Assembly (NCBI RefSeq): GCF_020991065.1
Contig: NZ_CP087710.1
Location: 1,798,001 to 1,862,000, forward strand
Origin: Nocardioides okcheonensis
Lineage (GTDB): Bacteria > Actinomycetota > Actinomycetes > Propionibacteriales > Nocardioidaceae
Length of the DNA stretch: 64,000 nucleotides
Direction of reading: 5' to 3'
Both the position numbers and the translations under genes were made by a program. Below the pieces are notes generated by a model that saw nothing but the letters and a program-made list of their open reading frames with translations, ran no database searches and had not been told where the DNA came from. Below, piece after piece: positions 17,042-38,075 of the stretch. The first letter of the stretch is position 1. Each line of letters opens with the position of its first letter.

Positions 17042-17812
17042 TCAGTCGGTGCCGTGGCGCCGCACGAAGTCGACGATCGCCTCGGCGAGCTCGGGGCGGC
17101 ACACGATGAGGTCGGGCAGCGAGGTGTCGTCCTCGTTGTAGACCAGCTCGGAGCCATCGACCCGGCTGCAGTGCAGGCCGGCGGCGCGGGCGACGACCAC
17201 CGGCGCGGCGTTGTCCCACTGGTACTGGCCGCCGGCGTGGACGTAGGCGTCGGCGACGTCGCGGACCACGCTCATCACCTTCACGCCGGCGCTGCCCATC
17301 GGCACCAGCTCGGCGTCGAGCTCGGCGGCGAGCGCCTCGACGAAGGCCGGCGGGCGGCTGCGCGACACCGCGATCCGCGGACGCTCCGAGCTGCGGGGCG
17401 GCACCACGCTGGGCCGACCGGTGGAGAAGGTCTCCCCCAGCGCCGGCTGGGCGACCGCGCCCGCGACGAGGTCGCCGTCCTGCCAGAGCGCGACGTGGAC
17501 CGCCCAGTCGTCGCGCGGCGGCTCGGAGAACTCACGGGTGCCGTCGAGCGGGTCGATGATCCACACCCGGCTCGCCGAGAGGCGGGACTTGTCGTCCGCC
17601 GCCTCCTCCGACAGCACGGCGTCGTCGGGCCGGTGCGCGGTGAGGACCCGGTCGAGCTCGGCCTGCGCCGCGGCGTCGCCGGCGTCCTTGAGGGCCTTGC
17701 CCTCCAGGCCGTCGGCCTCCGCGCGGGAGCGGACGTCGAGCAGGACGGAGCCGGCTCGCTCGGCCGCCCAGACGGCGAAGGCGTGGTCGTCCAGCGTGGA
17801 GGGATCGATCAT
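17042..17812 (-). CDS. cysQ: 3'(2'),5'-bisphosphate nucleotidase, CysQ/inositol-phosphatase family
   Basis: A 256-aa lithium-sensitive-type phosphatase. Motifs are LSEEAADD (metal ligand Glu), WIIDPLDGTREF (DPxDGT with two metal ligands) and QWDNAAP near residue 200 (WDxAA variant). CysQ enzymes hydrolyse PAP, the product inhibitor released by PAPS-dependent sulfotransferases. The context supports this over inositol phosphatase: four sulfotransferase genes lie 10-21 kb away, and the start overlaps the LuxR regulator stop by four bases, making a two-gene operon. Confidence 0.85.
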   Translation of the reverse strand: MIDPSTLDDHAFAVWAAERAGSVLLDVRSRAEADGLEGKALKDAGDAAAQAELDRVLTAHRPDDAVLSEEAADDKSRLSASRVWIIDPLDGTREFSEPPRDDWAVHVALWQDGDLVAGAVAQPALGETFSTGRPSVVPPRSSERPRIAVSRSRPPAFVEALAAELDAELVPMGSAGVKVMSVVRDVADAYVHAGGQYQWDNAAPVVVARAAGLHCSRVDGSELVYNEDDTSLPDLIVCRPELAEAIVDFVRRHGTD

Positions 17813-18606
17813 GCACCGGATCCTATCGGCGCACCGAGACCGCCGAACGCGCCCGTCCGTGCCCGCGGTCGTGGGACCAGGTCGCCCGTCTCGCCGACGT
17901 CGCCGACCTCGTGGACCTGGCGCAGCATCGCCACCGCCTCCAGCTGGGTGCGGGCGCCGAGCTTGCTGCGCAAGGTCTTGACGTGGCTGCGGACTGTGCC
18001 GTCGGCGATGCCCATCACCTCGGCGACCTCGGGCACCCGGCGCCCCGAGGCGAGCAGCTCGAGCACCCGCAGCTGCTGGCGTGACAGGCCGCGCATCTGG
18101 GCCAGCAGGTGGTGCCTCTTGTCAAGGGCGTCCAACCAGTCGGCCCTCAAGGCCTTGCGACGTTCTGCATCCATCAAGGGATCGCCGGCGACGAAGCGTC
18201 GCACCATGTCGCCGAGCTGCTCCACGGAGGTCGTCACGGTGACCACGTCGACGGAGCTGCCCTGGAGCAGGCCGCCCCACACGAGCGCGTTGGGGGCGGA
18301 CGTGACCACTGCGACGCGGGCCTGGCCGCGGGCGACGAAGCGGCCCACCGCCTCGACCGCACGGGGCCGGTCGACCCCGTCGAGGATCACCATCACGTGG
18401 GCCGCGGGACCGCTCCCGGAGGGAGTCGCGGCGTCGCCGTCGGCGGGCACGAGGAGCTGCTCCCACGCGTGGAACTCCGCGGGCGCACCGGTGGTGCGCA
18501 GCGCCTCGGCCACGGCCTGGGCGACCAGGTCGTGCGGTGAGACCACCCACGCGACGGTCCCGTGCGCCGGGTCGGGCACGGGCTCCTGCGCTGCACGCGT
18601 CGACAT
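17809..18606 (-). CDS. LuxR-family regulator with degenerate receiver domain
   Basis: A 265-aa protein. The N-terminal half has the layout of a response-regulator receiver, but the acidic pair is replaced by VVSPHD and the region where the conserved lysine should lie reads VTVTTSVEQL. An aspartate remains in VILDG at the normal phosphorylation strand. The C-terminal LuxR HTH is intact (residues ~170-230: LSRQQLRVLELLASGRRVPE, GTVRSHVKTLRSKLGA). It probably binds DNA without classical phosphorylation. GGGAGGT precedes the ATG. It is divergent from a histidine kinase operon and co-transcribed with cysQ. Confidence 0.85.
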   Translation of the reverse strand: MSTRAAQEPVPDPAHGTVAWVVSPHDLVAQAVAEALRTTGAPAEFHAWEQLLVPADGDAATPSGSGPAAHVMVILDGVDRPRAVEAVGRFVARGQARVAVVTSAPNALVWGGLLQGSSVDVVTVTTSVEQLGDMVRRFVAGDPLMDAERRKALRADWLDALDKRHHLLAQMRGLSRQQLRVLELLASGRRVPEVAEVMGIADGTVRSHVKTLRSKLGARTQLEAVAMLRQVHEVGDVGETGDLVPRPRARTGAFGGLGAPIGSGA

Positions 18607-18682
18607 GGCACCTCCCTCGGCAACGGCGTCACCGCACTCTGACGCCTCGTCGGCGCGCAGACGACCACCCGTGCCGCACGTG

Positions 18683-18695
18683 CACCGAATTGGGG
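18683..18695. promoter_or_regulatory. Predicted operator S2 (CACC-GAATT-GGGG)
   Basis: Palindromic site about 77 bases upstream of the luxR start. It shares CCGAATTGGGGA with the site at 33524, upstream of the plus-strand EPS operon. Confidence 0.5.
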
Positions 18696-18924: not shown

Positions 18925-18932
18925 TGGAACAT

Positions 18933-19065: not shown

Positions 19066-20541
19066 ATGCAGGGGATCTATCGTTCGGAGGACGGTTGGCG
19101 GGTGGTCGGGGCGACCACGGCCGCGGCCGGGCTCCTGGTGCTGGTCGGCGTCGCATCGAGCGGCGGGCACGCGTTCAACACGTTGCCGACACAGACGGCG
19201 TTGCCGCCGCTGGCCGACGGACTGCTGAGCGGCGTCTTCGTCGCTGGCGCCGTCGGCGCGGCGCTCGTCACGTGGCGCCGCCACGGCGGACCGCTGGCCG
19301 GGTGGATCGTGGGCACGGGTGCCCTCGTCGCCGCGCAGGCGTTGGCCGTCACGCTGCTGGCGCTCCAGCTGCCGCCGCCGCGCGAACCGGTGGCGTTCAC
19401 GCTGCTGCTCGGCACCGCGCTGCTCGGCATGGTCTGCGTGGTCACGCCGCTGCTCAGGCTGGGGCGGTTCGAGCACGTGGTCGACGACAGCTTCGTCATC
19501 GGGGTCGGCATGGGCATCACCGCCGCCGGCTTCCTGGTCCTGCAGTTCCCGATGTCGCAGACACCGCGACCGGCGATGCTCGCCCTCGCCGGCGTGCTGG
19601 CGGCCACGCACGTGGTGACCGCCGGACTCGTGCTGCGCCAGCGCGGTCTGCCGCCGACGGCCCGCGGGCTGATCGTGGCGACCGTCGCCGTGGTGTCCTC
19701 GAGCCTCGCGGTCCGGTGGTCCGGGCTGTCGGGGTCGGAGTGGGAGCTGCTGGCCTCGCTGTCGCGGGCCGGGATCGGCGCCGCCTGGTTCGGGTTCACC
19801 TGGACCTGCCTGCAGCGCCACGCGGACGAGGACGACCGCCGCTTCGAGGCGATGAACTCGGTGCTCGTCTCGACCACCCGTGACCAGCGCGAGCGGATGC
19901 ACGAGCTGCGCAGCACGATGGCGGGGCTGGTGAGCGGCTCCGCGCTGCTCGACAACGCCGACGTCCCGCCCGAGGCGCGCGAGCGGCTCTGGCGCTCGGT
20001 CCGCTCCGAGCTCGACCGGATGGAGCGGCTGCTCGCGGGCAAGGAGCAGCCGGCGACCGACATCCACCTCGACGACGCGCTCAACCGCATCCTCGACCTG
20101 CAGCGGCTCAAGGGCCGCCGCGTCGAGCTGCACTCCGACGGCGGCGTGGTCCGCGGGCGCTACGACGCCCTCGCCGAGGTCGTCAACATCCTCGTCGACA
20201 ACGCGGTCACCCACGGCGGCTCCGACACCAGCCTGGTCGAGGTGGTCACCCGCGACGAGCAGACCGTCGACATCCGGGTCACCGACTTCGGTCGCGGCAT
20301 CGCCGAGGACCAGCGCACCCGGATCTTCGAGTGGGGCGGTCGGGCGAGCGAGGCTCCGGGCGAGGGCATCGGGCTCCACCTGGCCAAACGGCTGATGACC
20401 GAGGACGGCGGCTCCCTGGAGCTCGACGAGGCCACGGAGGGGACGGGCTCGTCGTTCGTCATCTCGCTCCCGGCCGCGCGACGCTCCTCCGAGAACGACC
20501 TGACGGTGGGAGGCAGCCATGGCCGGCACGTCACGCTCTGA
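19066..20541 (+). CDS. Membrane-bound sensor histidine kinase
   Basis: A 491-aa kinase. The N-terminal ~260 residues hold about eight hydrophobic segments and little periplasmic sequence, suggesting intramembrane sensing. The H-box is HELRST with the phospho-acceptor His at ~279. The ATPase domain shows N-box NILVDNAVTHG, G1 box DFGRGI and G2 box GEGIGLHLAKRL. The start at 19066 is preferred because GCAGGA precedes it and the signal-like first helix follows; the frame is open to TTG 18847. The gene overlaps its response regulator by 23 bases. Confidence 0.88.
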   Translation: MQGIYRSEDGWRVVGATTAAAGLLVLVGVASSGGHAFNTLPTQTALPPLADGLLSGVFVAGAVGAALVTWRRHGGPLAGWIVGTGALVAAQALAVTLLALQLPPPREPVAFTLLLGTALLGMVCVVTPLLRLGRFEHVVDDSFVIGVGMGITAAGFLVLQFPMSQTPRPAMLALAGVLAATHVVTAGLVLRQRGLPPTARGLIVATVAVVSSSLAVRWSGLSGSEWELLASLSRAGIGAAWFGFTWTCLQRHADEDDRRFEAMNSVLVSTTRDQRERMHELRSTMAGLVSGSALLDNADVPPEARERLWRSVRSELDRMERLLAGKEQPATDIHLDDALNRILDLQRLKGRRVELHSDGGVVRGRYDALAEVVNILVDNAVTHGGSDTSLVEVVTRDEQTVDIRVTDFGRGIAEDQRTRIFEWGGRASEAPGEGIGLHLAKRLMTEDGGSLELDEATEGTGSSFVISLPAARRSSENDLTVGGSHGRHVTL

Positions 20542-21202
20542 CCACCGCGTCCTCATCGTCGACGACCACGTGCTCTTCGCGGAGTCGCTCGAGCTCGCGC
20601 TCTCCCTCGAGGGCTACGACGTGCGCCGGCTCGAGCTGCCCGAGGAGGGCGGGTCGATGGCGACGATCCGCTCGCTCGCCCTGCGGGCCAACCCGCGCAC
20701 CGTGTTCCTCGACCTCGACCTGGGCCGGTTCGGCGACGGGATGAACCTCGTCGCCCCCCTGGCCAAGGCCGGCATCAACGTGGTGGTGCTGACCGCCTCG
20801 GAGGAGCTCGGCAGGTGGGGCGGCTGCATGCGGCTCGGCGCTCGGCGCGTGCTGCCCAAGAGCGGCGCGCTCCAGCAGGCGCTCGCCACGGTCCGGCGGC
20901 TGCACCAGGGGTTGCCGGTGATCAACCGCGACGAGCTCGAGACGCTCCTCGACGCCTGGGCGCGCGAGCGCCGGGCGCACGACGACCTGCGCCGTCGGCT
21001 CGACCTGCTCACGCCGCGCGAGCGGCAGGTGCTGGGCGCACTGATCGAGGGCCGCACCGTCCGCGAGATCTCCCACGTCAGCGTCGTCTCGGAGGCGACG
21101 GTCCGCACGCAGGTGAAGTCGATCCTCAACAAGCTCGAGGTGTCGTCGCAGCTCGCCGCGGTCGGGATGGCCAACCAGGTCGGCTGGCGGCTCGGCGCAT
21201 GA
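20519..21202 (+). CDS. LuxR-family response regulator
   Basis: A 227-aa two-domain regulator. The receiver is canonical: acidic pair IVDDH, phosphorylation strand FLDLDLG, threonine in VVVLTASEE and lysine in VLPKSG. The C-terminal LuxR HTH (~155-215) shows LTPRERQVLGALIEGRTVRE and ATVRTQVKSILNKL. It lies directly after its kinase and overlaps it, so the two form a cognate pair. It is one of two candidates, with the divergent LuxR protein, to bind the palindromes described here. Confidence 0.93.
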   Translation: MAGTSRSDHRVLIVDDHVLFAESLELALSLEGYDVRRLELPEEGGSMATIRSLALRANPRTVFLDLDLGRFGDGMNLVAPLAKAGINVVVLTASEELGRWGGCMRLGARRVLPKSGALQQALATVRRLHQGLPVINRDELETLLDAWARERRAHDDLRRRLDLLTPRERQVLGALIEGRTVREISHVSVVSEATVRTQVKSILNKLEVSSQLAAVGMANQVGWRLGA

Positions 21203-23004
21203 GCGGGCTCGCCGGCGTACGCACCTTCTCGGGAGCCGCCCCCGCCGCCGAGACCCTGTCCATCATGTCGCGCACGCTCCAGCACCGCGGGCCCGACGAG
21301 TCGTCGGTGTGGGTGGGGCCGGACGTGGGCCTCGCCCACGCCCGCCTCGCCGTCCTCGACACGGAGCACTCGCACCAGCCGATGCACTCACCCGACGGGC
21401 GGTGGGTGGTCGCGCTCGACGGTGCCATCACCAACCACGCCAGCCTGCGCACCCAGCTCGACCACCCGTTCCGCACCCGGGGCGACACCGAGGTCGTGGT
21501 GGCGGGGCTGGCGCTCGAGGGGATCAGCTTCGTCGAGCGGCTGCACGGCCAGTTCGCGATCGCGGCCCACGACCTGCGCACCGGGGTGACCCACCTGGTC
21601 CGCGACCGGCTCGGCGTGCTGCCGCTCTACTACCGCCACGTCCCGGGCGGGATCGCGTTCGCGTCGGAGGTCAAGGCGCTGCTGGCGATCGGTCCGGCCG
21701 TGGAGGTCGACCTGCGCAGCCTCGACGCGTACCTCGGCAGCCGCACGGTGCCGGCCCCCGACACCCTCTTCCAGGGCGTGAAGAAGGTCCTGCCCGGGCA
21801 CCGGGCCGCGATCACGCCGCGCGGCCACCTCGAGCAGACCTGCTGGTGGACGCCGCCCGAGAGCGACCCCGAGGGCATCTGGACCGCGGGCGACGCCATC
21901 GAGGCCGTCGGCGACGGGGTCCGCGAGGCGGTCCGGGCAGCGCTCGTGTCCGACGTGCCCGTCGGCGTGCACCTCGGCGGGGGTGTCGGGAGCGCCCTCG
22001 TCGCGGCGGAGGTCCAGCAGCTGCGCCGCGACGCACCGCTCCCCTCGTTCGCCGTCGGCCTCGACGTGCACCCGCCCGACCGGCTCGCCTGGACGCGCCG
22101 CACCGCCGAGCTGATGGGCACCGAGCACCACGAGGTCCGGCTGCGGGCCGCCGACTTCGAGGACCTCTGGCACCGCCTCACCTGGCACCGGGAGGCGCCG
22201 ATCTCCGACCCGTGCGACGTCGCCCAGTTCGGGCTGGCGCAGGACGCCGGCCGGTCGGTGCGGGTGGTGCTGTCGGGCGAGGGCGGCGACGAGCTGTTCG
22301 GCGGGCTGCCGCACCGGCGGCTGAGCCGGCTCGCGGCCCACGCGTCGCTGCTGCCCGGCAAGGTCCGGGCCAGCGTCGAGCGCCACCTCGGCGCGCCGTT
22401 CGCGGCCGTCGAGCGCCAACGGCTGCTCGGCAGCGCTCCCCCGGCGGAGCGGCGGGCGGTGCCCACCCCGGGCGCCGACCCCTACGACCGGCAGGTGCGC
22501 GACGACGTACGCCACCTCCTGCCCGACCACCTGCTCGAGCGGGGCGACCGGCTGTGGACCTCGGGGTCGCTCGCCTGGCGACCGCCGCTGCTCGACCACC
22601 GGCTGGTCGAGCTCGCCTTCCGGCTCCCGACCTCGGTCCGGGTGCGGTCCGGGTCGACCCGGTGGCTGCTGGAGGAGGCGGCTCGCCCGCTCGTGCCGGA
22701 GGAGGTCATCGACCGGCCGCGTACCGACGCGCCGCGCGTGCCGCTCGACACCTGGTTCCGCAACGGCCTGCACGACACCGCCCGGGAGTGGCTCGGCTCC
22801 CCCGGGTCCTGGGTCGCCCACACGCTCGACCCGGCCGCGGTGCGGGCGCTGGTGGAGTCACCCGCCCGGGGCGCCCAGGAGGACCTGCAGCTCTGGACGC
22901 TGCTCAGCCTCGAGATGTGGCACCACGCGTTCTTCGGCGCCGCCCCCGTGGTCCCGCGCCCGCGCGCCACCGTCGTCGACACCGCGCCGAGCGGCCGCCC
23001 CTGA
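21199..23004 (+). CDS. Asparagine synthetase homologue with degenerate active sites
   Basis: A 601-aa protein with both domains of AsnB. The glutaminase domain begins MSGLAGV where AsnB has MCGIAGV, so the catalytic Cys2 nucleophile is Ser. Other glutaminase landmarks (LQHRGPDE, HARLAVLD) remain. In the synthetase domain the ATP-pyrophosphatase loop reads HLGGGVGSA instead of the usual SGGLDSS. The later SGEGGDELFGG motif is retained. The gene overlaps the response regulator stop (ATGA). Asparagine-synthetase-like proteins occur in polysaccharide clusters, but this one is unlikely to make asparagine; a regulatory or binding role is possible. Confidence 0.85.
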   Translation: MSGLAGVRTFSGAAPAAETLSIMSRTLQHRGPDESSVWVGPDVGLAHARLAVLDTEHSHQPMHSPDGRWVVALDGAITNHASLRTQLDHPFRTRGDTEVVVAGLALEGISFVERLHGQFAIAAHDLRTGVTHLVRDRLGVLPLYYRHVPGGIAFASEVKALLAIGPAVEVDLRSLDAYLGSRTVPAPDTLFQGVKKVLPGHRAAITPRGHLEQTCWWTPPESDPEGIWTAGDAIEAVGDGVREAVRAALVSDVPVGVHLGGGVGSALVAAEVQQLRRDAPLPSFAVGLDVHPPDRLAWTRRTAELMGTEHHEVRLRAADFEDLWHRLTWHREAPISDPCDVAQFGLAQDAGRSVRVVLSGEGGDELFGGLPHRRLSRLAAHASLLPGKVRASVERHLGAPFAAVERQRLLGSAPPAERRAVPTPGADPYDRQVRDDVRHLLPDHLLERGDRLWTSGSLAWRPPLLDHRLVELAFRLPTSVRVRSGSTRWLLEEAARPLVPEEVIDRPRTDAPRVPLDTWFRNGLHDTAREWLGSPGSWVAHTLDPAAVRALVESPARGAQEDLQLWTLLSLEMWHHAFFGAAPVVPRPRATVVDTAPSGRP

Positions 23005-24081: not shown

Positions 24082-24094
24082 CCCCACGACTGGG
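24082..24094. promoter_or_regulatory. Predicted operator S6 (CCCC-ACGAC-TGGG)
   Basis: Weaker member of the palindrome family, followed by TATG like site S4. It lies upstream of the sugar-phosphate transferase gene; a TAGGCT -10-like element follows about 90 bases later. Confidence 0.35.
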
Positions 24095-24184
24095 TATGTC
24101 CCCGGGGCCGTGCCGATCGCCGGAACCCCCTGTCCTGCAGGGCTTTCGCTCATATGCGGCATGCCGTGGAGGGGGTCTGGTTCC

Positions 24185-24190
24185 TAGGCT
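24185..24190 (+). promoter_or_regulatory. Predicted -10 element TAGGCT
   Basis: The sequence CCTAGGCTCG matches elements before the other EPS units (CCTAGCGTCG at 33575, CCTAGGGTCG at 31659). It gives a leader of about 45 bases before the ATG at 24242. Confidence 0.45.
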
Positions 24191-24241
24191 CGCAGCACGG
24201 ACGACGAGGTCGTCGCAGGGGTGCTGGAAGGGGTGGTGGAC

Positions 24242-28499: not shown

Positions 28500-28530
28500 G
28501 AGAGCCCCCTTCCGAAGCGGCGTGCCATGG

Positions 28531-29451: not shown

Positions 29452-30476
29452 GTCACGGTCCTCCTGTCGGGGGCGGTCCCGGTGGCCGCACCGGCGGCGG
29501 TCGGGGCGGTTCGGGGTGCGGGGGCGTAGCCGTAGTCGACGAGCAGCGGCAGGGTCAGGCCGGTCACCACCGCGCGGGCGCCGGCCGGCATCTCGCTGGC
29601 CCACGCCTCGTCGCGGCGCAGCCGGACGACGCCGGACCGGAAGCGCGACGGGTTGCCGGACAGGCCGTGGCTGGGCTCGAGCAGGATCGCGCCGTCGTCG
29701 ACGGCGGGCAGCTGCTCGGGCGCGAGCGGGAGCCCGAGGTCGGTCGTCGCGGCCACCAGCGAGCCGACCGGGTCGGCGACGAAGTCCTCGTAGCGCAGCC
29801 GTGCGGACGGTACGCCGCCCCACCGCGCGATCGAGGCCATCTCCAGCTGGAGGCCGCTCCACTGGGCGGCCGCGCGGTGGGCGGGGATGCGCCACATCTG
29901 GTCCGACCCCGACGCGTCGTGGGGGCGCGCCACCTCCCGCTGCCAGGACCAGGCCACGGCGCGCGGGTCGCGCACCACGTTGAGCACGCGCAGGTCGATG
30001 TCGGGGGCTCCGGCCAGGGCCTGGCCGAGCGCCGGGCCCTTCGAGGCGTCGATGACGACGCTCGACCCGGTGACCTCCGCGACCGCGCGGTAGATCGCGG
30101 CGTAGTCGGCGCGCAACGACGCCAGCGCCGGCGACGGGGCGGACCCACGCCGCGGACGCGGCAGGTCGGGCAGCAGGCCGGGCAGGTGCCGCTGGCGGGC
30201 GGCCGCGCGGTGGGCGCCGCGGATCCGCTCGAGGACCTCGTCGGTCCAGCCGCCGAAGGCGACCTCGCCGACGCGCGACCAGACCGGGCAGGCCGAGAAC
30301 CGCTCACCGCACCCGCAGAGCTCGTCGTGCGGGGCGACCGAGCGGGCCAGGTCGACGACCTCGCCGACATTGACCCATCCGGGCACCGCACCCAGCACCC
30401 GCTCGACCAGCGTCGAGCCCGACCGGCCGAAGCCGCCGAGGTAGACCACGCTCACGCCCGGCGTCCGTGCCCCCAC
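29448..30476 (-). CDS. Sulfotransferase with conserved Cys cluster
   Basis: A 342-aa PAPS-dependent sulfotransferase. The PAPS loop is YLGGFGRSGSTLVERVL (~12-28) and the 3'-phosphate site is LNVVRDPRAVAWSWQRE (~165). Between them lies CGCGERFSACPVW, matching CGCGVPFSQCPFW in the protein at 33642; both continue GEVAFGGW. The shared cysteines suggest a structural zinc site or disulfide specific to this subgroup. The protein closely resembles the one at 33642, so the two arose by duplication and may sulfate different positions. GTG start 14 bases after the PssE-like stop. Confidence 0.88.
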   Translation of the reverse strand: MGARTPGVSVVYLGGFGRSGSTLVERVLGAVPGWVNVGEVVDLARSVAPHDELCGCGERFSACPVWSRVGEVAFGGWTDEVLERIRGAHRAAARQRHLPGLLPDLPRPRRGSAPSPALASLRADYAAIYRAVAEVTGSSVVIDASKGPALGQALAGAPDIDLRVLNVVRDPRAVAWSWQREVARPHDASGSDQMWRIPAHRAAAQWSGLQLEMASIARWGGVPSARLRYEDFVADPVGSLVAATTDLGLPLAPEQLPAVDDGAILLEPSHGLSGNPSRFRSGVVRLRRDEAWASEMPAGARAVVTGLTLPLLVDYGYAPAPRTAPTAAGAATGTAPDRRTVT

Positions 30477-30490
30477 GTCGCCACGCCCTC

Positions 30491-31057
30491 TCAGCGGTCG
30501 CCGGACGGGAGGACCGTCCGGCTCCGTCGGGGCCGCGGGATCCGCATCGGGCGGACGGTGGTGAGCTCGTCGAGCTCACGAGCGGCGAGGGTCAGCGCCG
30601 CCCGGCGGGCGCGGTCGCCGGCCTCGCTGGCGAGACCGCCGCGACCGAGCAGCAGCACGCCGTCGACGTCGGTGAGGAAGCCCTCGAGGCTGGTGACCGG
30701 ACGGACCAGGCCGACCTCGCCGACGACGGCGACGAAGCGCTGCTGGTGGTCGTCGACGTGCTCGCCGAGGCGCGGGTCGCGCGGCACGCACAGCGGCACG
30801 TGGCCGGCGGCGCGGGCGTCCATGATGGTGCCGGGCCCGCCGTGGCAGACCACGGCGTCGGCCTCCTGCACGAGGCGGGAGAGGTGGTCGTGGGCGAGGA
30901 AGCCGTGCCCCTCGGCCACGCGGGGGGCCGGGCCGGCGCCGTGCTGCACGACGAACCGCACGTCGGGCCGCCGGGCCGCGGCGGCGTCCATCCACTCGAC
31001 CAGCCGCGCGAACGGGTGGTGGTCGGTGCCGGCGAGGGCCAGGACGAGCGCGCTCAC
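30491..31057 (-). CDS. PssE/Alg13-like glycosyltransferase subunit
   Basis: A 188-aa protein equivalent to the C-terminal donor-binding half of GT28 enzymes. It starts ALVLALAGTDHHPFARLVEW and carries AVVCHGGPGTIMDA and PLCVPRDPRLGEHVDDHQQ, the UDP-sugar-binding region of Alg13/PssE. It is coupled by a GTGA overlap to the PssD-like gene, and the two halves are expected to form one transferase at the membrane. The C-terminal ~40 residues are basic and outside the fold. Confidence 0.88.
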   Translation of the reverse strand: MSALVLALAGTDHHPFARLVEWMDAAAARRPDVRFVVQHGAGPAPRVAEGHGFLAHDHLSRLVQEADAVVCHGGPGTIMDARAAGHVPLCVPRDPRLGEHVDDHQQRFVAVVGEVGLVRPVTSLEGFLTDVDGVLLLGRGGLASEAGDRARRAALTLAARELDELTTVRPMRIPRPRRSRTVLPSGDR

Positions 31058-31542
31058 AGCAGCGGTCCGACGAGGTGGGCGTCCGGGTAGAACTCCAGCT
31101 GGCTCTGCCACTGGACCAGGCGCCGGGTGGTGAACGGCCCGCACAGGCGGCCCGTCATGGTCGGGGTGTCGACCCGGTCGTAGACCTCGATGAAGACCGT
31201 CGGGATGCGCATCAGCCAGGCGAGCACGAAGAACGGCACCGCGACGCCGGCTCCGGCGCTGACCACGATCGCCGGGCGCTCGCGGAGCAGGACGCGGACC
31301 GCGAGGAAGGCGTTGCGCAGCAGGTTCGGCACGTTGCGGGTGGTCGGGTGGTACGACGGCCGCAGCCGCTCGCCCCCGAGCCGGTCCAGCACGTCGGGGG
31401 TGGCCGGACAGACCCAGAGCCGGTCGCGTCCCTCCCACCACGGGCGCAGGGCCAGCAGGTGCGTCAGGTGCCCGCCCTGGGTGCTCACGAGCAGCACCGG
31501 ACCGCTCCGCCGCTCCCCGGGTTCGATGACCGCTTCGTCCAT
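31054..31542 (-). CDS. PssD/Alg14-like glycosyltransferase membrane subunit
   Basis: A 162-aa partner of the PssE-like protein. Features are LLVSTQGGHLTHLLAL (~17-32), the PSYHPTTRNVPNLLRN segment, SAGAGVAVPFFVLAWLM as the membrane-associated helix, and FIEVYDRVDTPTMTGRL. Alg14/PssD proteins anchor the catalytic half to the membrane and bind the lipid acceptor. The start is ATG 31542 or GTG 31548; neither has a ribosome binding site. It is the first gene of the minus-strand EPS operon, and operator S4 lies about 55 bases upstream. Confidence 0.88.
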   Translation of the reverse strand: MDEAVIEPGERRSGPVLLVSTQGGHLTHLLALRPWWEGRDRLWVCPATPDVLDRLGGERLRPSYHPTTRNVPNLLRNAFLAVRVLLRERPAIVVSAGAGVAVPFFVLAWLMRIPTVFIEVYDRVDTPTMTGRLCGPFTTRRLVQWQSQLEFYPDAHLVGPLL

Positions 31543-31595: not shown

Positions 31596-31608
31596 CTCCA
31601 TATTGGGG
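31596..31608. promoter_or_regulatory. Predicted operator S4 (CTCC-ATATT-GGGG)
   Basis: Located between the divergent pssD-like operon and the GH26-like gene at 31673, so it could control both. It shares ATTGGGG with S1 and S2. Confidence 0.5.
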
Positions 31609-31672: not shown

Positions 31673-32671
31673 ATGGAGATCGGACGACGACGGCTGCTCG
31701 GCCTCGGTGCCGGCGCGGCGGTGGCCGTCCTGGCGTCGTCGTGCAGCGGCTCGCCCACCAGCGCCCCGGCGAGCGTCACGCCGCGTCCCAGCCGCACCTC
31801 GCGCCCGACGCCCTCCCCGACCCCGGCGGCCTTCCCGGGCCAGCCCGCGGCCGGCGACCTCTACTACGGCGCGTCGGTCCCCTTCCACCGCTCGCTGGCC
31901 GGGTGGGAGCGTGAGCTCGGGTCGCCGCTGGCGCTGAACCGCTCCTACTTCGCGCCCGACCGCAACGAGGCCCGGCAGCTGGTCGCCCGCTGCCGCGACG
32001 ACCTCGCCAACGGACGGCTCCCCCACGTGTCGAGCAAGGCCGACGGCACCTGGGCCGACGTCGCCGCCGGACGGCGCGACGCCTGGCTGGCGAGCATGCT
32101 GGCACCCCTGGGCGAGCTCGGCGGGACGGTGCTGTTCACCCTGCACCACGAGCCGGAGAACGACGCCGGCCAGCCCGGGATGATGCCCGACGACTGGACC
32201 GGCATGCAGCGCCGGGCGGTGTCGATGGCGGCCGACCTCGCGCCGTCGGTCGTGGTGGCGCCCGTCCTGCAGCACTGGACCTTCGACCCGTCGCGCCACG
32301 ACGTCGACCCCGGCCGCTGGCTGGTGCCGGAGGCCCCGGTGGCCGGTCTCGACGTCTACAACCCGTGGTCGCCGGCGAACCGCAAGGAGTGGCGCAGCTT
32401 CGGCAGCAAGATGGACGAGGTGCTCGGCTGGTTCGAGGGCCGGCCGCTCGTGATCGGCGAGTACGGCTGCCGCGACGACCCGCAGAACCCCGGGCTGGCC
32501 GCGCAGTGGATCCGCGACGCCGCGGCCTACGCCCGCGAGCACGGCATCGTGTCGATGTCCTACTTCAACTCCGGGCTGAACTCGCCGGAGGGCACGTGGG
32601 AGATGAGCCCGTCGATGCAGTCGGCGTTCGCCTCCGAGCTCACCTCGGACTGGGTCGCGCGGCCCGCCTGA
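31673..32671 (+). CDS. GH26-like glycosidase lipoprotein (Tat-type)
   Basis: A 332-aa exported protein with a twin-arginine-like lipoprotein signal (GRRRLLGLGAG, lipobox ASSC) and a proline/serine/threonine linker to ~58. The catalytic (beta/alpha)8 domain shows LFTLHHEPEN, with the predicted acid/base Glu after H-H, and LVIGEYGCRDD, with the predicted nucleophile Glu, as in GH26 and related clan A endo-mannanases and xylanases. It probably trims or releases the EPS made by the surrounding genes. Three further relatives lie at 45-49 kb. No ribosome binding site; leaderless start. Confidence 0.85.
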   Translation: MEIGRRRLLGLGAGAAVAVLASSCSGSPTSAPASVTPRPSRTSRPTPSPTPAAFPGQPAAGDLYYGASVPFHRSLAGWERELGSPLALNRSYFAPDRNEARQLVARCRDDLANGRLPHVSSKADGTWADVAAGRRDAWLASMLAPLGELGGTVLFTLHHEPENDAGQPGMMPDDWTGMQRRAVSMAADLAPSVVVAPVLQHWTFDPSRHDVDPGRWLVPEAPVAGLDVYNPWSPANRKEWRSFGSKMDEVLGWFEGRPLVIGEYGCRDDPQNPGLAAQWIRDAAAYAREHGIVSMSYFNSGLNSPEGTWEMSPSMQSAFASELTSDWVARPA

Positions 32672-32684
32672 CGCCGGGGTGGGC

Positions 32685-33470
32685 TCAGCCGGCGTCGACG
32701 TCGATGACGACGTCGTCGACCGAGCCGTGGAACTGGTCGTCGTCGTCACCGACGCCGGGGCTGCCGATCCGCACCGGCATGCCGGTGTGGACGGCGCCGA
32801 GCGCGACGCCCTTGCGACGCACGTCGCCGTCGACCTCGATGCTGACCCCGTCGGCGTCGCGCCGGCAGACCACCCGGTGCCAGGCGTCGTCGGCCACGGA
32901 GGTCTCCGACCGGATCTTCACGATGTCGTCGCCGGAGCGCAGGATGCAGCTGGGCAGCCCCTCCTCGCCGTCGACCTGGAGCTTCCACTGGCCCCCCTCG
33001 GAGCCGTAGCGGCCGCTCTGCACGATGTTGGAGCCGATCGCGGTCCGCTCGACCGGGAGCCGCACGCTGGCGCCGTAGGAGAACGCCCGGTCGCCCGGGT
33101 CGAGGGCGGGGTCGGCCGGCACCTCGACCATCGCGCGTGGACAGCCGGTGCTGTCGTCGCAGACGTCCGGGAACTCCAGCGCGTCCCCGCGGCCCGCCGC
33201 ACCCGCGACCACGCCGACCTCGCCGCCGTTGGCGGTCACGACCTTGCCGGAGATCAGCCCGCCCTGGGCGTCGCCGTACTCCGGGGAGCCGTCGAAGCCG
33301 GGCTGCTGCTCGTCGAACGACAGCCACAGCTCGGCGCCGCGGGTGTCGATGGCCGGCGCGGCCGCCGGCGGGACCGACGCGCGCTCCGGGGGCTCCGTGC
33401 CGGTGGCGCCGCACCCGGCCGCGAGCAGCGCCAGCACCGCCAGCGCGGGGATCGTCGTGGAGGTCCTCAC
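32685..33470 (-). CDS. LamG/concanavalin-like lipoprotein
   Basis: A 261-aa lipoprotein. The signal is IPALAVLALLAAGC with the lipobox cysteine at ~20. After a proline-rich linker, residues ~45-255 form one LamG-type jelly roll: AELWLSFDE, FSYGASVRLP, GQWKLQVDG, WHRVVCRRDADGVSIEVDG and SVDDVVIDVD. Such domains bind glycans, fitting a role in retaining or sensing the EPS. It is divergent from the plus-strand EPS operon and convergent with the GH26-like gene. GTG start. Confidence 0.82.
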   Translation of the reverse strand: MRTSTTIPALAVLALLAAGCGATGTEPPERASVPPAAAPAIDTRGAELWLSFDEQQPGFDGSPEYGDAQGGLISGKVVTANGGEVGVVAGAAGRGDALEFPDVCDDSTGCPRAMVEVPADPALDPGDRAFSYGASVRLPVERTAIGSNIVQSGRYGSEGGQWKLQVDGEEGLPSCILRSGDDIVKIRSETSVADDAWHRVVCRRDADGVSIEVDGDVRRKGVALGAVHTGMPVRIGSPGVGDDDDQFHGSVDDVVIDVDAG

Positions 33471-33523: not shown

Positions 33524-33536
33524 CCCCGAATTGGGG
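33524..33536. promoter_or_regulatory. Predicted operator S1 (CCCC-GAATT-GGGG)
   Basis: Best copy of the palindrome, between the divergent LamG lipoprotein gene and the plus-strand EPS operon. A CCTAGCGTCG -10-type element follows, with its TAG at 33577. Confidence 0.55.
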
Positions 33537-33641: not shown

Positions 33642-34598
33642 ATGAAGATCCTCTACATCGTGGGTGTGGGCAGGTCCGGCAGCACGCTGCTGGAGCGGGT
33701 CCTGGGCGCGCAGCCGGGCTGGGTCAACGCCGGCGAGCTGAACGCCCTCTTCTCGCGCGTCTCGCGCCAGGACCAGCGCTGCGGGTGCGGCGTGCCGTTC
33801 TCGCAGTGCCCCTTCTGGGTCGAGGTCGGCGAGGTCGCCTTCGGCGGCTGGGACGCCGTGACCGACGAGGTCGCCCGGCTGCAGCCCCGCGTGGTGCGCC
33901 AGCGCTACGTCCCGCGGATGATGACCGGCGCGATGCCGGCCGACGCCCGTCGCGAGCTCGACACGTACCTCGACCGGCACGAGCGTCTCTACCGCGCGAT
34001 CGCCGAGGTGTCGGGCGCCGAGGTCGTCGTCGACGCCAGCAAGTCGACCGCCCAGCTGTTCGCGCTGCGCCGCATCGACGGCCTCGACCTGCGCGTGCTC
34101 AACCTGGTCCGCGACCCGCGCGGCGTCGCGAGCTCGTGGAGCAAGTCCGACATCCGCAAGCCCCAGTCGCGCGACGGCGAGGCGATGGGGACCTACTCCC
34201 CGCACCGCCTCGCGGTGCTCTGGGCCGCGCTGCAGGCCGAGTCGACCGTGCTCGGCTCCGCCGCCACCCACGCCACCCGCGTGCGCTACGAGGACCTCGT
34301 CGCCAACCCCCGCACGACCGTCGAGCGGGCGCTGCGCGCAGTCGGCCTGCCGGCGGCCGCCGGCGCCCTGGACCACGTCGGCGACTCGAGCGTCGAGCTC
34401 GGTCCGAGCCACGGCGTCGCAGGCAGCCGCACCCGCTTCGTCCACGGCCGCATCGACCTGCGCCTGGACGACGCCTGGCACACCGCGCTGCCGCCGGTCT
34501 CGCAGCGGGTCGTCACCGCGATCACGCTGCCGCAGCTGCTCACCCACGGCTACGTCGGCCGCACGCCGACCCGGGCGCGCACGGAGGCGACCCGGTGA
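33642..34598 (+). CDS. Sulfotransferase, first gene of the plus-strand EPS operon
   Basis: A 318-aa PAPS-dependent sulfotransferase. The PAPS loop is YIVGVGRSGSTLLERVL (~5-21), followed by CGCGVPFSQCPFW (~46-58), EVVVDASKSTAQ and the 3'-phosphate site LNLVRDPRGVASSW (~157). It is the paralogue of the protein at 29448 and shares its cysteine cluster and GEVAFGGW segment. The ATG follows GGGGCTGAGG. Its stop overlaps the next start (GTGA), beginning a chain of coupled EPS genes. Confidence 0.9.
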   Translation: MKILYIVGVGRSGSTLLERVLGAQPGWVNAGELNALFSRVSRQDQRCGCGVPFSQCPFWVEVGEVAFGGWDAVTDEVARLQPRVVRQRYVPRMMTGAMPADARRELDTYLDRHERLYRAIAEVSGAEVVVDASKSTAQLFALRRIDGLDLRVLNLVRDPRGVASSWSKSDIRKPQSRDGEAMGTYSPHRLAVLWAALQAESTVLGSAATHATRVRYEDLVANPRTTVERALRAVGLPAAAGALDHVGDSSVELGPSHGVAGSRTRFVHGRIDLRLDDAWHTALPPVSQRVVTAITLPQLLTHGYVGRTPTRARTEATR

Positions 34599-35962
34599 GC
34601 GTCGCCGCGCTGGTGCCGGCGCCGCACGCCCTCGCCGGCACCCGCGAGCGCCGCCTGCTCAAGCCCGGCTGGCCGCTGGCGGTCCTCTACCTCGGGTTCC
34701 CGCTGTGGTGGGCGCTCGGCCTGGCCCAGCTGATCTTCTTCGCGATGGCGCTCGCGATGGCCGTCATCCTGCGCCGCAAGGGCGACCTCGTCGTGCCGCG
34801 GGGCTTCGCCCTGTGGCTGCTGTTCCTCGTCTGGATGTTCATCGGCGTCTTCGTCACCCACGCCCAGGCACCCGACACGGTGCCCGGCGGCGGGATCGGC
34901 CGGGTCGCGGGCTTCGCGGTCTGGGCGGGCTGGTACGTCGCGATCACCGTCGTGATGCTCTACGTCGTCAACACCGCCCGCGAGCTCCCGACCCAGCGGG
35001 TCGTGCGGCTGCTGGCGTGGATGTTCGTGGTGACCACCGGCTTCGGGGTGCTCGCGATGCTCGCGCCGACCCTGGAGTTCCGCTCGCCGATGGAGCTGGT
35101 GCTGCCGCGCAGCCTGACCTCGAAGAACTTCGTGCGGACCCTCGTGCACCCGTCGCTGTCGTCCTCGAGCGACTTCCTCGGCTACGTCCAGCCGCGCCCG
35201 ACCGCGCCGTTCCCCTACTCCAACGCCTGGGGCAACAACATCGCCCTCTACCTCCCCTTCTTCGTGCTCGCCTGGACCGGGCGCGACGCCGGGTGGCGGC
35301 GCCGCCTGGCCCCGCTGGTGCTGGTGGCGGCGGTCTTCCCGATCACGTTCTCCCTCAACCGGGGCCTGTGGATCTCCCTCGGCATGGCCGCGGCCTACGC
35401 CGCGTTCCGGCTCGCCGTCAACGGCCGCTACCGCGCCCTGCAGGCGCTCGTCGCGGCGGTCCTGGTCGGCGGCATCGTGTTCGTCTCGTCCCCGCTCTAC
35501 GACACGCTGATGCTGCGGGTCGAGACGCCGCACAGCAACGACCGACGCGCGGGCACCGCCGAGACCGTCGTGTCCGTCACCGCCCAGGGGTCGCCGGTCG
35601 TCGGCTACGGCACGACGCGCACCATGCAGGGCAGCTTCAGCTCGCTCGCCGGCGGCGAGACCGCCCAGTGCCACCAGTGCGCCGCGCCGCCGCTCGGGAC
35701 CCAAGGCTTCATGTGGCGGCTCGTGCTGACCACCGGGTTCGTCGGCACGCTGCTGTGCCTCGCCTTCTACGCCCACCAGTTCCTCCGGCGCGCCCGGGGT
35801 CCGGCGCCGCTCGACGTCGCCGGCTGCTCGGTGCTGCTGATCTCGGTGCTCTGCTTCTTCGTCTACGACTCGCTCGGCTCGGCGATGTTCACCACGATGG
35901 TCGCGGTCGGGCTGATGGCCCGCGCCGACCTGCCCGACGAGACCCCGGAGGTGGCGTCGTGA
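34595..35962 (+). CDS. Wzy-like O-antigen/EPS polymerase
   Basis: A 455-aa polytopic membrane protein with about eleven hydrophobic segments. A large extracytoplasmic loop lies at ~145-215 and a second at ~305-365, the latter containing TVVSVTAQGSPVVGYG and a CHQC pair. SLNRGLWISLG resembles the conserved Wzy_C/O-antigen ligase region. Its place beside Wzx and Wzz genes supports block polymerisation of lipid-linked repeats over O-antigen ligation. GTG start overlaps the sulfotransferase stop. Confidence 0.85.
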   Translation: MSVAALVPAPHALAGTRERRLLKPGWPLAVLYLGFPLWWALGLAQLIFFAMALAMAVILRRKGDLVVPRGFALWLLFLVWMFIGVFVTHAQAPDTVPGGGIGRVAGFAVWAGWYVAITVVMLYVVNTARELPTQRVVRLLAWMFVVTTGFGVLAMLAPTLEFRSPMELVLPRSLTSKNFVRTLVHPSLSSSSDFLGYVQPRPTAPFPYSNAWGNNIALYLPFFVLAWTGRDAGWRRRLAPLVLVAAVFPITFSLNRGLWISLGMAAAYAAFRLAVNGRYRALQALVAAVLVGGIVFVSSPLYDTLMLRVETPHSNDRRAGTAETVVSVTAQGSPVVGYGTTRTMQGSFSSLAGGETAQCHQCAAPPLGTQGFMWRLVLTTGFVGTLLCLAFYAHQFLRRARGPAPLDVAGCSVLLISVLCFFVYDSLGSAMFTTMVAVGLMARADLPDETPEVAS

Positions 35963-37209
35963 GCGCGCCCGCACCGACCGCGTCCGCGTCCTACGCCGCG
36001 GAGGTCACTCGCCTGCTGTGGCCCGAGCCCTGGGAGGCGCCCCGGATGACGCGGTCCCGGCGCCGCGGTCCGGCCGGCCCCGGCACCCGCGACGTCTACC
36101 TCTTCCCGAGCGGCGGCCGGCCGCGCCTGCTGGTGCCCGCCGACCTGCCCGGCTCCTCGGTGATGGTCCGTCGCCTGGGCGGGTCGCGCGCCGGTCTGGT
36201 CGGGCCCGCCCGGCGGGTGCTCGAGCGCTCGCTGCGCTCGCCGGCCTTCCCGCTGCTCGGGTGGCCACGGCTGACCGTGAGCGGCGGCGGCCCCGACGCC
36301 GACTCGATCGAGCGGCACCTCGGCGCCAGCCTCGGCACCGACGTCCGCGTCGGCGTCCTGCTCGGGACGCGCCGGGTCAACCAGAAGCCGGTCCTGCAGG
36401 TGTTCGCCTCCGACGGCTCGGTGCTCGGCTACGCCAAGGTCGGCCACAACGACCTCACCGCCGACCTGGTGCGCCGCGAGGCGCAGGCGCTGGCGTCGGT
36501 GGCCGCGCACCGCCCGCGCACCTTCCGGGTCCCCGAGGTCCTGCACCACGGCCGCTGGTCCGGGCTCGAGGTGCTGGTGATGTCGGCCCTCCCGTCGGGC
36601 GGCCGGGCGTCGGAGCACCAGCGGCTCGCCGCGGCCCGCGAGGTCGCGGACCTCGACGGCCGGACCCTGACGACGCTCGCCGACAGCGAGCACCTCACCC
36701 GCCTGCTCGAGCGGGTGCTCGGGGTCGGCGGCGGCACCGGTGGCGCCGCGGCCGAGCGCGTGCTCGACGCCGTCGAGGTGCTCGCCGAGCGGCACGGCGG
36801 CGACGTCGTCGCGCTGGGTGGCTGGCACGGCGACTGGGGCCACTGGAACATGGGCGTCACCGACGGCGTGCTGCACGTCTGGGACTGGGAGCGCCACGAG
36901 CCCCGGGTGCCGGTCGGCTTCGACGAGCTGCACTTCGCCGCCCAGTCCGTACGCCCCGGCCAGCGGGCCGCCGCCCAGCAGCAGCGTTCCTTCCTGGCCT
37001 CCGTCGACGGGCTGCTCGCCGCGCTCGACGTGCCGTCCGAGCGACGCCACCTCACCCTCCTGCTCTACCTCGCCGACATGGCCACCCGCTACCTCGAGGC
37101 CCTCGAGCACGGCGCCACGCCCGCCCTCCGGCTCCGCACGGACTGGATCACCTCGCTCCTCGAGGACCAGCTGCGCGAGCCCCGACCCGTACCGAACGGA
37201 GCACCATGA
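35959..37209 (+). CDS. APH-fold phosphotransferase in the EPS operon
   Basis: A 416-aa soluble protein of the aminoglycoside-phosphotransferase/choline-kinase fold. The C-lobe has the catalytic loop LGGWHGDWGHWNMG (HxDxxxxN) and the metal-binding VWDWERH (DxD-like) at ~290-315. An N-terminal ~115-residue extension precedes the N-lobe (VLQVFASDGSVLGYAKVG). It may phosphorylate a sugar, lipid carrier or protein of EPS synthesis. No antibiotic-resistance role is implied by this setting. It overlaps both neighbouring genes by four bases. Confidence 0.8.
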   Translation: MSAPAPTASASYAAEVTRLLWPEPWEAPRMTRSRRRGPAGPGTRDVYLFPSGGRPRLLVPADLPGSSVMVRRLGGSRAGLVGPARRVLERSLRSPAFPLLGWPRLTVSGGGPDADSIERHLGASLGTDVRVGVLLGTRRVNQKPVLQVFASDGSVLGYAKVGHNDLTADLVRREAQALASVAAHRPRTFRVPEVLHHGRWSGLEVLVMSALPSGGRASEHQRLAAAREVADLDGRTLTTLADSEHLTRLLERVLGVGGGTGGAAAERVLDAVEVLAERHGGDVVALGGWHGDWGHWNMGVTDGVLHVWDWERHEPRVPVGFDELHFAAQSVRPGQRAAAQQQRSFLASVDGLLAALDVPSERRHLTLLLYLADMATRYLEALEHGATPALRLRTDWITSLLEDQLREPRPVPNGAP

Positions 37210-38075
37210 CCATCCGCAGCTCGATGCCCCACCCCGTCAAGACCGCAGGCCGCGTCCTGTCCGTCGGAGTCGGCTCCGCGACCGCGTCGCACCGCCAGCT
37301 CCCGACCTTCATCCTGGTCGGCGCGCAGCGGGCCGGGACGACGTCGCTGTTCCGGGCCCTGATGGCGCACCCGCTCATCCACTCCGCGAACTACCACAAG
37401 GGCGTCAACTACTTCGACGTCAACTACCAGCGCGGCTTCGACTGGTACCAGGGCCACTTCCCGCTGCGCGCGTCGCTCAAGGCGCGCTCCCGCGGCGTCG
37501 AGGGCGACCCGATCACCTTCGAGGCCAGCGGCTACTACATGTTCCACCCCTGCGCCCCGGCACGGATGGCCGAGCACCTGCCCGACGTGCGGGTGCTGGC
37601 GATGCTCCGCGACCCGGTCGAGCGCGCCTGGTCGGCCTACAAGCACGAGCACGCCCGCGGCTTCGAGACCGAGGAGTTCGAGCGCGCGCTCGACCTCGAG
37701 GACGAGCGGCTCGAGGGGCAGGCGGAGCGGATGCTCGCCGACCCGCTCTACCAGAGCTCCAGCCACCGCCACCACGCCTACGTGCGCCGCGGCCACTACG
37801 CCGAGCAGCTCGCGCGGATCGGCGAGCACTTCCCCCGCGAGCAGGTGCACGCGGTCGAGAGCGAGTCGTTCTTCGAGCACCCGGAGCAGACCTTCGCCGG
37901 CATCCTCGACTTCCTCGGGCTGCCGGTGGTGATGCCCGACCGCTTCGACCGGTGGAACGGGCGACCCAGCGCGCCGATGGCCGCGACGACCCGCGCCCGC
38001 CTGCGCGAGCACTTCGCGCCCCACGACGACGCGCTCGGCGACTTCCTGGGGCGGCGGCCTGCATGGACCACGTGA
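37206..38075 (+). CDS. NodH/heparan-type sulfotransferase
   Basis: A 289-aa PAPS-dependent sulfotransferase. The PAPS loop is FILVGAQRAGTTSLFRAL (~35-52) and the 3'-phosphate motif LAMLRDPVERAWSAYKHE (~135-152). The segment NYFDVNYQRGFDWYQGHFP is typical of heparan/NodH-type enzymes acting on carbohydrate. It belongs to the same subgroup as the protein at 27666 and differs from the Cys-cluster pair. ATG overlaps the kinase stop. Confidence 0.92.
   Translation: MTIRSSMPHPVKTAGRVLSVGVGSATASHRQLPTFILVGAQRAGTTSLFRALMAHPLIHSANYHKGVNYFDVNYQRGFDWYQGHFPLRASLKARSRGVEGDPITFEASGYYMFHPCAPARMAEHLPDVRVLAMLRDPVERAWSAYKHEHARGFETEEFERALDLEDERLEGQAERMLADPLYQSSSHRHHAYVRRGHYAEQLARIGEHFPREQVHAVESESFFEHPEQTFAGILDFLGLPVVMPDRFDRWNGRPSAPMAATTRARLREHFAPHDDALGDFLGRRPAWTT

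Follow-up and report, generated by a model that had tools for sequence, protein, structure and literature searches.

We analysed a 64,000-nucleotide stretch of the Nocardioides okcheonensis genome (bases 1798001-1862000 of one 4.47-Mb contig; hereafter the window), in which genes for sulfotransferases using 3'-phosphoadenosine 5'-phosphosulfate (PAPS) lie among genes for the synthesis of an exopolysaccharide (EPS). The account that we favour, with rather better than even confidence, is that of a sulfated Wzx/Wzy EPS island with a shared EPS regulon, of which cysQ (encoding a phosphatase of the sulfation by-product 3'-phosphoadenosine 5'-phosphate, PAP) is an old member. A sequence-only reading of this DNA had proposed a probable sulfated EPS pathway with dedicated PAP recycling. 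The pathway is well supported, because both the gene content and the conserved linkage of the sulfotransferases with Wzx, Wzy and glycosyltransferase (GT) genes point to it, and judging from these genes a sulfated EPS is the likely product.

The probable sulfated EPS cluster

Two divergently oriented blocks form the core of the cluster. The minus-strand block (27666-31497) is made up of ST26-GT27-ST28-GT29-GT30 and the plus-strand block (33642-42016) of ST33-Wzy-APH35-ST36-Wzz-Wzz-Wzx; a hydrolase-like gene (GH31) and a LamG gene lie between them. Gene borders were set with a positional-G+C script, and the gene starts are approximate. Together with the priming enzyme, the genes are as follows.

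24221..25750, plus strand: polyprenyl glycosylphosphotransferase, the priming enzyme (PF02397; TIGR03025, 325 bits, cut-off 295.55)
27666..28499, minus strand: sulfotransferase ST26, heparan-sulfate type (PF13469 and PF00685 above cut-off)
28531..29451, minus strand: glycosyltransferase family 2, GT27 (PF00535)
29448..30476, minus strand: sulfotransferase ST28, CxC...C..W type (PF13469, 42.2 bits, cut-off 27)
30491..31057, minus strand: PssE-like glycosyltransferase half, GT29 (PF04101; PssE 59.1 bits, cut-off 120)
31054..31497, minus strand: PssD/Alg14-like glycosyltransferase half, GT30 (PF08660; PssD 99.1 bits, cut-off 110)
31721..32671, plus strand: GH31, secreted glycoside-hydrolase-like protein, named by eye, recurring in the module
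32685..33470, minus strand: LamG-domain lipoprotein-like protein (PF13385)
33642..34598, plus strand: sulfotransferase ST33, CxC...C..W type (PF13469, 60.2 bits; PF00685, 23.2 bits, cut-off 22)
34595..35962, plus strand: putative Wzy-type polymerase (75-94% identical in seven module carriers)
36046..37209, plus strand: kinase-like protein APH35, named by eye, start uncertain (relatives in 35/40 class loci, described below)
37206..38075, plus strand: sulfotransferase ST36, heparan-sulfate type (PF13469 and PF00685 above cut-off)
38063..38872, plus strand: Wzz-like membrane protein, named from linkage, without a Pfam match
38859..40448, plus strand: Wzz/tyrosine-kinase-like chain-length protein (PF02706)
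40445..42016, plus strand: Wzx-type flippase (PF13440, PF01943)

This is the gene set of a Wzx/Wzy-dependent EPS cluster: the priming enzyme, GTs, Wzx and Wzz were recognised by their families, and the putative Wzy (34595-35962), which had no Pfam or NCBIfam match, is so named from its position, an apparent hydrophobicity judged by eye, and strict linkage. PAPS sulfotransferases lie inside this cluster and are conserved with it, as expected of a sulfated-EPS cluster of the xss or wps-1 kind. For the GH31 protein, Pfam, NCBIfam and PDB searches gave no credible match; for APH35, no family match or solved relative was found. The APH35 gene (36046-37209) sits between those of Wzy and the ST36-type sulfotransferase.

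The presence of four PAPS-type sulfotransferases among the Wzx, Wzy, Wzz and GT genes, first noticed from the letters of the sequence, was borne out by Pfam matches for all four. The whole genome contains eight places matching PF13469 or PF00685 (one of them below cut-off), and four of the eight fall within 10.4 kb of the window; by simple arithmetic, this clustering does not come from chance. ST28 and ST33 are paralogues (43%), and the start of ST33 was placed at 33642, where its aligned relatives also begin. Both sulfotransferase types retain the PAPS loop and the RD...S motif (GxGRSG[ST]T and RDxRxxAxSW in alignment A2, where 1 of 12 rows begins past the loop; GxxRxGTT and RDPVxRAxS in alignment A4), of which the former binds the 5'-phosphosulfate and the latter the 3'-phosphate. 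The best solved relative of ST26 and ST36 is 3rnl, an uncharacterised bacterial sulfotransferase, and human heparan sulfate sulfotransferases come next; for ST26 the relatives ranked after PDB 3rnl include heparan sulfate 3-O-sulfotransferases. The AlphaFold model of ST33 (pLDDT 88) has a tyrosylprotein sulfotransferase as its nearest solved fold (TM 0.53, E 1.8e-8). In the CxC...C..W sulfotransferases (33642-34598 and 29448-30476), three cysteines and a tryptophan were invariant in 12/12 aligned sequences, and these residues possibly form a metal or structural site.

CysQ and the supply of PAPS

The genes that could clear PAP or serve the PAPS cycle, and the two housekeeping genes that frame the island, are the following.

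10835-14440, minus strand: mfd, named by eye
17042..17812, minus strand: cysQ, PAP/PAPS phosphatase (PF00459)
17809..18606, minus strand: luxR, LuxR/GerE-type regulator (PF00196, 42.6 bits)
54985..56016, plus strand: TauE/SafE transporter (PF01925)
63091-63693: pth, named by eye

The sequence-only reading had described a cysQ-like gene overlapping a regulator gene by 4 nt. The overlap (ATGA) is present, and the name of cysQ is upheld by PF00459 and by the best solved relative of its product, the PAP phosphatase 5djf (206.4 bits, over residues 7-247), which we take to be CysQ of Mycobacterium tuberculosis (Rv2131c). The scores were 37.4 bits with histidinol phosphatase and at most 37.9 bits with inositol phosphatase. 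CysQ remained below the NCBIfam cut-offs of TIGR01331 (98.7 of 228.8 bits) and NF008182 (59.7 of 379 bits), two models which appear to have been built on other lineages. The genome has three further PF00459 genes, which resemble cysQ only distantly; the product of cysQ therefore probably clears PAP from every source (phosphopantetheinyl transfer is a further one besides sulfation), and is probably the sole PAP phosphatase of the genome, serving all PAP producers.

That the genome might be without a PAPS source was ruled out, as an APS (adenosine 5'-phosphosulfate) kinase is present. Its gene, above cut-off and with one strong place (201.5 bits) at 2.17 Mb, lies ~0.35 Mb from cysQ; a second place is weak (28.9 bits). 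It is followed by a gene resembling low-molecular-weight phosphatases and by a TauE paralogue (72% identical to the TauE of the window; ~2.17 Mb, locus L020), with cysD and cysN ~4 kb further. CysN was above the TIGR02034 cut-off, and CysD was identified from a PF01507 match and by eye. TauE/SafE may transport sulfur anions for the PAPS cycle.

The destination of PAPS depends on CysH. This protein scored 218.8 bits with the thioredoxin-dependent APS-reductase model versus 167.9 bits for the model of PAPS reductase, neither score reaching its cut-off, and it bears CC and CxxC cysteine pairs, which we take to be marks of APS reductase. Because of these paired cysteines CysH appears to lean towards APS reductase; if it is one, PAPS, and hence PAP, would serve sulfation. 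In M. tuberculosis PAPS is likewise described as serving sulfation (PMC3141025).

A proposed class-wide island between pth and mfd

A profile of ST36 matched 128/394 genomes of the class at E ≤1e-25, and from these 128 we took 40 strong matches in genomes of other genera, a single locus from each genome. The stretch around each was no longer than 20 kb, with ~10 kb flanking the match in either direction, less where a contig ended. Relatives of Wzy (37/40), Wzx (36), Wzz (35) and APH35 (35) were nearly always found, and a sulfotransferase of the second type in 21. The stretches also contained cysN (15/40), mfd (13), cysQ (12), cysD (12), APS kinase (11) and TauE (7), and at least one of cysQ, cysD, cysN and APS kinase was present in 22/40. 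Queries without an expected role, used as an internal comparison, were rare at the thresholds applied to them and gave 1/40 for the histidine kinase of the window and 0/40 for its AsnB, response regulator, luxR and CotH genes.

The clearest arrangement was seen in a bacterial family (f18) which we call Streptosporangiaceae-like, since one protein of its locus L198 matches a Planomonospora venezuelensis protein at 100% identity. In 11/27 f18 loci cysQ, cysD and cysN are consecutive, within ~10 kb, and in ten of these rows a sulfotransferase gene is next to cysN (L202 lacks it); APS kinase occurs in 10/27. In L198, one strand carries genes for the priming transferase, CysQ, CysD, CysN, a sulfotransferase and a GT, and the other those for Wzx, an ST36-type sulfotransferase, APH35, Wzy, Wzz, TauE and APS kinase, after which comes mfd. 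When five f18 loci with stretches that stopped too soon were extended, cysQ was next to cysD in 5/5 (in one case across two stretches) and pth was found in 4/5; with 5/27 loci thus extended, 11/27 are still without cysQ in the stretch. Three f18 genomes show the slot with pth at one end and mfd at the other: G288 (L202), G429 (L193 and L221) and G314 (L196 and L222). TauE relatives adjoin the APS kinase gene in several f18 loci too. Judging from the cysQ-cysD-cysN rows, sulfation and PAP clearance appear to have an old and real connection.

Distribution of cysQ within the genus

We searched 118 genomes of the genus, the same set for each of four genes. A cysQ gene was found in 117/118 and APS kinase in 116/118 (in G110 only weakly), versus 27/118 for relatives of ST33; ST36 relatives, many of them distant, were found in 98/118. 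The window's Wzy is present in 12 named loci, from Nocardioides species, Nocardioidaceae metagenome-assembled genomes (MAGs) and two "Actinomycetes bacterium" MAGs, and 6/12 contain all four sulfotransferases. N. lacusdianchii and N. terrigena are among the carriers; no homologue of ST33 was seen in N. lacusdianchii. The sulfotransferase-EPS block travels as a unit: it lies at mfd beside cysQ in G108, at mfd with cysQ on a separate contig in G101, and 1.2 Mb from cysQ in G054.

Of the 117 cysQ loci, 54 were compared in stretches that extend ~16 kb from cysQ in one direction and ~3 kb in the opposite one. This was a non-random sample, consisting mainly of loci with the cysQ most like that of the window and of carriers of ST33 relatives, and the EPS markers sought were the sulfotransferases, Wzx, Wzy and priming enzyme of the window. 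The usual place of cysQ is the mfd/pth region: either pth or mfd was seen in 39/54 loci, and pth lay within 2 kb of cysQ in 21/54, 20 of which had no match to these markers in the stretch. Three of the 20 (L112 of G087, L120 of G004 and L125 of G072) were removed, as a sulfotransferase relative lies 6-22 kb away, outside the stretch. There remain 17/54 loci with pth beside cysQ and, by eye among the matches listed, no sulfotransferase relative within 30 kb.

A luxR gene accompanies cysQ in 18/54 loci (not counting the window, itself a further such pair with sulfotransferases). Sulfotransferases are present in the stretch in 2/18 (G021 and G116), and in L117 of G079, where the luxR call is weak, sulfotransferase relatives lie ~18 kb from the pair. 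G102 (L147) has kept the usual cysQ beside pth and has a second one in the row cysD-cysNC-cysQ-(unknown)-sulfotransferase, and this row shows the form that a dedicated unit takes in the genus.

This distribution means that cysQ is not private to EPS. The candidate role of a module-specific gene was rejected; cysQ is not restricted to places with the sulfotransferase module. The term "dedicated" for its PAP recycling has consequently to be given up within the genus, given the counts for cysQ and ST33 relatives and the 17 sulfotransferase-free pth-cysQ loci, while the association of sulfation with PAP clearance as such stands by virtue of the f18 rows.

A predicted operator shared by luxR-cysQ and the EPS operons

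The dyad CCCCNAATTGGGG was derived from the ST33 promoter of the window and then tested in orthologous promoters. Its sites in the window are as follows.

18683..18695: operator CACCGAATTGGGG, before luxR-cysQ, conserved in relatives
31596..31608: operator CTCCATATTGGGG, between GT30 and GH31
33524..33536: operator CCCCGAATTGGGG, before the ST33-Wzy operon
42040..42052: operator-like site with 2 mismatches, before the CotH gene

The idea that the regulator and the EPS operons carry the same predicted operator held up, as dyads like CCCCNAATTGGGG are conserved before luxR-cysQ, GT30 and ST33-Wzy. Operators within 2 mismatches were found in 10/11 ST33 or Wzy promoters (each with p ≤0.033, from 300 shuffles per promoter in genomes that are related, the promoters of the window and L085 being near copies), in 9/10 GT30-GH31 promoters (a set that leaves out L122), and in 15/18 promoters between luxR and the histidine kinase gene (p <0.05 in 11/18). 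Within the window, 12 rows at 7 places have up to 2 mismatches versus 4.3 expected, and 2/100 shuffles reach as many; one of the seven, at 27032, is not before an EPS gene. The sequence CCNCNAWTTGGGG has one exact match in the genome, at 33524..33536, so that the exact genome-wide search for a wider regulon gave only the ST33-Wzy site. We read the CCCCNAATTGGGG dyad as a mark of an EPS regulon, which cysQ joins by way of luxR; the dyad is a predicted operator of the NarL/LuxR type, presumably bound by a regulator of that kind.

Many relatives have another pair of conserved words before the glycosylphosphotransferase gene (window ~24085-24190), like CCCATCCC...ATGGGTAT and TTTCGCTCATTTGCGGCATGCC; this is a further candidate regulatory site.

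Comparison with known systems

The closest published system in the open-licence literature is wps-1 of Actinoplanes missouriensis (PMC13390465, 2026), whose EPS is described as probably sulfated. Compared by domain description only, wps-1 resembles the window in having Wzx, Wzy, Wzz, a family 2 GT, a kinase-like protein (WpsI) and a GH26-like protein. It contains two sulfotransferases of two types, one of them called heparan sulfate type, whereas the window has four. An APS-kinase-family gene, AMIS_7390, adjoins wps-1; the window is without an adjacent APS kinase and, unlike wps-1, has cysQ and LuxR control. Deletion of AMIS_7390 unexpectedly caused severe sporangium defects, and the gene was tied by the authors to sulfur amino acid synthesis (PMC13390465). 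WpsI, by description the Actinoplanes counterpart of APH35, is required for normal sporangia (PMC13390465).

The xss/synechan system of Synechocystis 6803 (PMC8205485) shares with the window a Wzx/Wzy EPS, sulfotransferases (two there), a regulator and a two-component pair. Its sulfate was measured. It differs in being cyanobacterial and on a megaplasmid, in having the STAND protein XssQ as its regulator, and in that its description does not mention cysQ. In Cobetia marina KMM 1449, for which a sulfated polysaccharide structure is reported, cysNC, cysD and cysQ lie in a capsule locus with sulfotransferase and export genes (PMC11766843); unlike the window, this is a Gram-negative capsule exported by an ABC transporter, not by Wzx/Wzy. 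CysQ of M. tuberculosis is a PAP phosphatase like that of the window, but acts in the context of other sulfated metabolites, not of EPS.

Bacterial sulfated polysaccharides are said in PMC8205485 and PMC13390465 to be known only from cyanobacteria, a statement to which the sulfated capsule of a marine Gram-negative bacterium (PMC11766843) is contrary. Sulfated EPS in actinomycetes was already proposed in 2026, for Actinoplanes (PMC13390465). We found no report of sulfated EPS from Nocardioides in the open-licence literature; the one paper that came up has the genus in its reference list and nowhere else.

Proposed pathway and alternative explanations

We propose that as many as four PAPS-dependent sulfotransferases would add sulfate to the repeat unit while it is still in the cytoplasm, before it is flipped by Wzx and polymerised with Wzy and Wzz. 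APS kinase, CysD and CysN, whose genes lie close together ~0.35 Mb from cysQ, would provide the PAPS. The synthesis of cysteine probably leaves the route at APS, and PAPS and PAP would be mainly for sulfation. CysQ would be an old member of the island, not private to EPS, and the operator would join luxR-cysQ, the GT30 operon and the sulfotransferase-Wzy operon in one EPS regulon. We read the window as a version, in Nocardioides, of a widespread island for sulfated EPS, one in which cysQ and a TauE-type transporter were retained; presumably other genes were lost from the slot and cysQ survived in it rather than arrived there. A broader proposal, to which we incline only slightly, is that several actinomycete families share an old pth-mfd island for sulfated Wzx/Wzy EPS with a full PAPS cycle (ATP sulfurylase, APS kinase, PAP phosphatase and a TauE-type sulfur transporter), and that this explains the Actinoplanes APS-kinase-family mutant. 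PAPS supply for the wps-1 sulfotransferases would be a simpler account of that mutant, despite the mild effect of losing one of them.

Several observations weigh against these proposals. The mutant of wpsB, one of the two wps-1 sulfotransferases, formed normal-looking sporangia, with about tenfold fewer spores released (PMC13390465). No PAPS-cycle gene lies in the stretch in 18/40 class loci, and within the genus APS kinase is near cysQ in 3/54 loci (G006, G105 and G026; cysD-cysN is near it as well in G006 and G026). Gene gain at the slot is the alternative to gene loss from it. CysH passes two models named phosphoadenylyl-sulfate reductase, PRK02090 (261.3 bits, cut-off 154) and TIGR00434 (192.7 bits, cut-off 165.1), although it looks, in our leaning, like an APS reductase; if it used PAPS, CysQ would be required for cysteine too. 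The operator failed in the ST33/Wzy promoter of L097 (3 mismatches, p 0.17) and in the GT30-GH31 promoter of L106, and is weak or absent in the luxR-histidine kinase promoters of L093, L100 and L101. Finally, 15/18 luxR-cysQ pairs have no sulfotransferase within 30 kb among the matches listed, and 12/15 luxR promoters of loci without a sulfotransferase in the stretch carry the operator, which therefore seems to control EPS in general. The suggestion that sulfation, by-product clearance and control are linked thus survives in the shared and conserved operator, and is loosened by the presence of the same operator at sulfotransferase-free EPS loci.

The strongest alternative, which we consider doubtful yet worth keeping in mind, is that cysQ is a mere housekeeping neighbour and the mfd-pth region an insertion spot for EPS clusters. 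The near-universal presence of cysQ (117/118), the pth-cysQ pairs without window-type EPS markers in the stretch, the occupation of the same place by differing EPS clusters, and a possible need for CysQ in cysteine synthesis, should CysH use PAPS, would all fit. The class loci weaken this explanation: same-strand cysQ-cysD-cysN-sulfotransferase rows, as in f18, are hard to get neutrally, APS kinase and TauE stand at the opposite end of the same f18 EPS core, and the operator is shared with the EPS operons.

It is improbable that, conversely, cysQ and the LuxR regulator form a dedicated PAP-recycling unit of the sulfated EPS pathway. The 4-nt overlap with luxR, the shared operator and the common island in the window would agree with such a unit, as would the f18 rows ending in a sulfotransferase (10/27 loci) and the cysNC, cysD and cysQ genes of the sulfated capsule locus of Cobetia (PMC11766843). 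Against it stand 117/118 genomes with cysQ versus 27/118 with an ST33 relative, 17/54 pth-cysQ loci and 15/18 luxR-cysQ pairs with no sulfotransferase within 30 kb among the matches listed, modules without adjacent cysQ (G054 and G101), and the absence from the genome of another closely similar CysQ that could deal with other PAP. Equally unlikely is a non-EPS target of the sulfotransferases (a glycolipid, secondary metabolite or secreted protein), which is suggested by the nearest folds of ST33 (tyrosylprotein sulfotransferases and sulfotransferase domains of polyketide pathways) and by mycobacterial sulfotransferases that modify other metabolites (PMC3141025), but is opposed by the heparan sulfate sulfotransferases that follow 3rnl among the solved relatives of ST26 and ST36, by the way in which the sulfotransferases stay with GT, Wzy and Wzx genes across many backgrounds, and by the fact that no secondary-metabolite core gene was seen among the window proteins read.

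Other features of the window

The remaining genes flank the cluster on both sides.

14624-16120: Ig16 and Ig17, related small secreted proteins in tandem, adjoining mfd
19102..20541, plus strand: sensor histidine kinase, start uncertain (PF02518)
20519..21202, plus strand: NarL/LuxR-type response regulator (PF00072, PF00196)
21199..23004, plus strand: AsnB, asparagine-synthase-like amidotransferase (PF00733, PF13537)
42141..45206, plus strand: CotH/LTD/fn3 secreted protein, accompanying the module in some genus carriers

The Ig16/Ig17 tandem is retained near cysQ in many relatives. An alpha/beta-hydrolase-like gene (~23027-23828, minus strand) is apparently split over two reading frames, which indicates a decayed gene or a sequencing error. 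Downstream of the CotH gene lie genes for GH41-like and PKD proteins, then the TauE/SafE transporter, and then pth.

Significance

If the broader proposal of a shared island is true, sulfated extracellular polysaccharide would be a common actinomycete trait and not a cyanobacterial rarity. In that case loss of PAPS for the wps-1 polymer would account for the sporangium defect seen in the Actinoplanes APS-kinase-family mutant; we know of no sporangia in Nocardioides. The analysis also provides named test species (N. lacusdianchii, N. terrigena and Planomonospora venezuelensis), and with a conserved island sulfated EPS would become a general trait of soil actinobacteria that can be put to the test.

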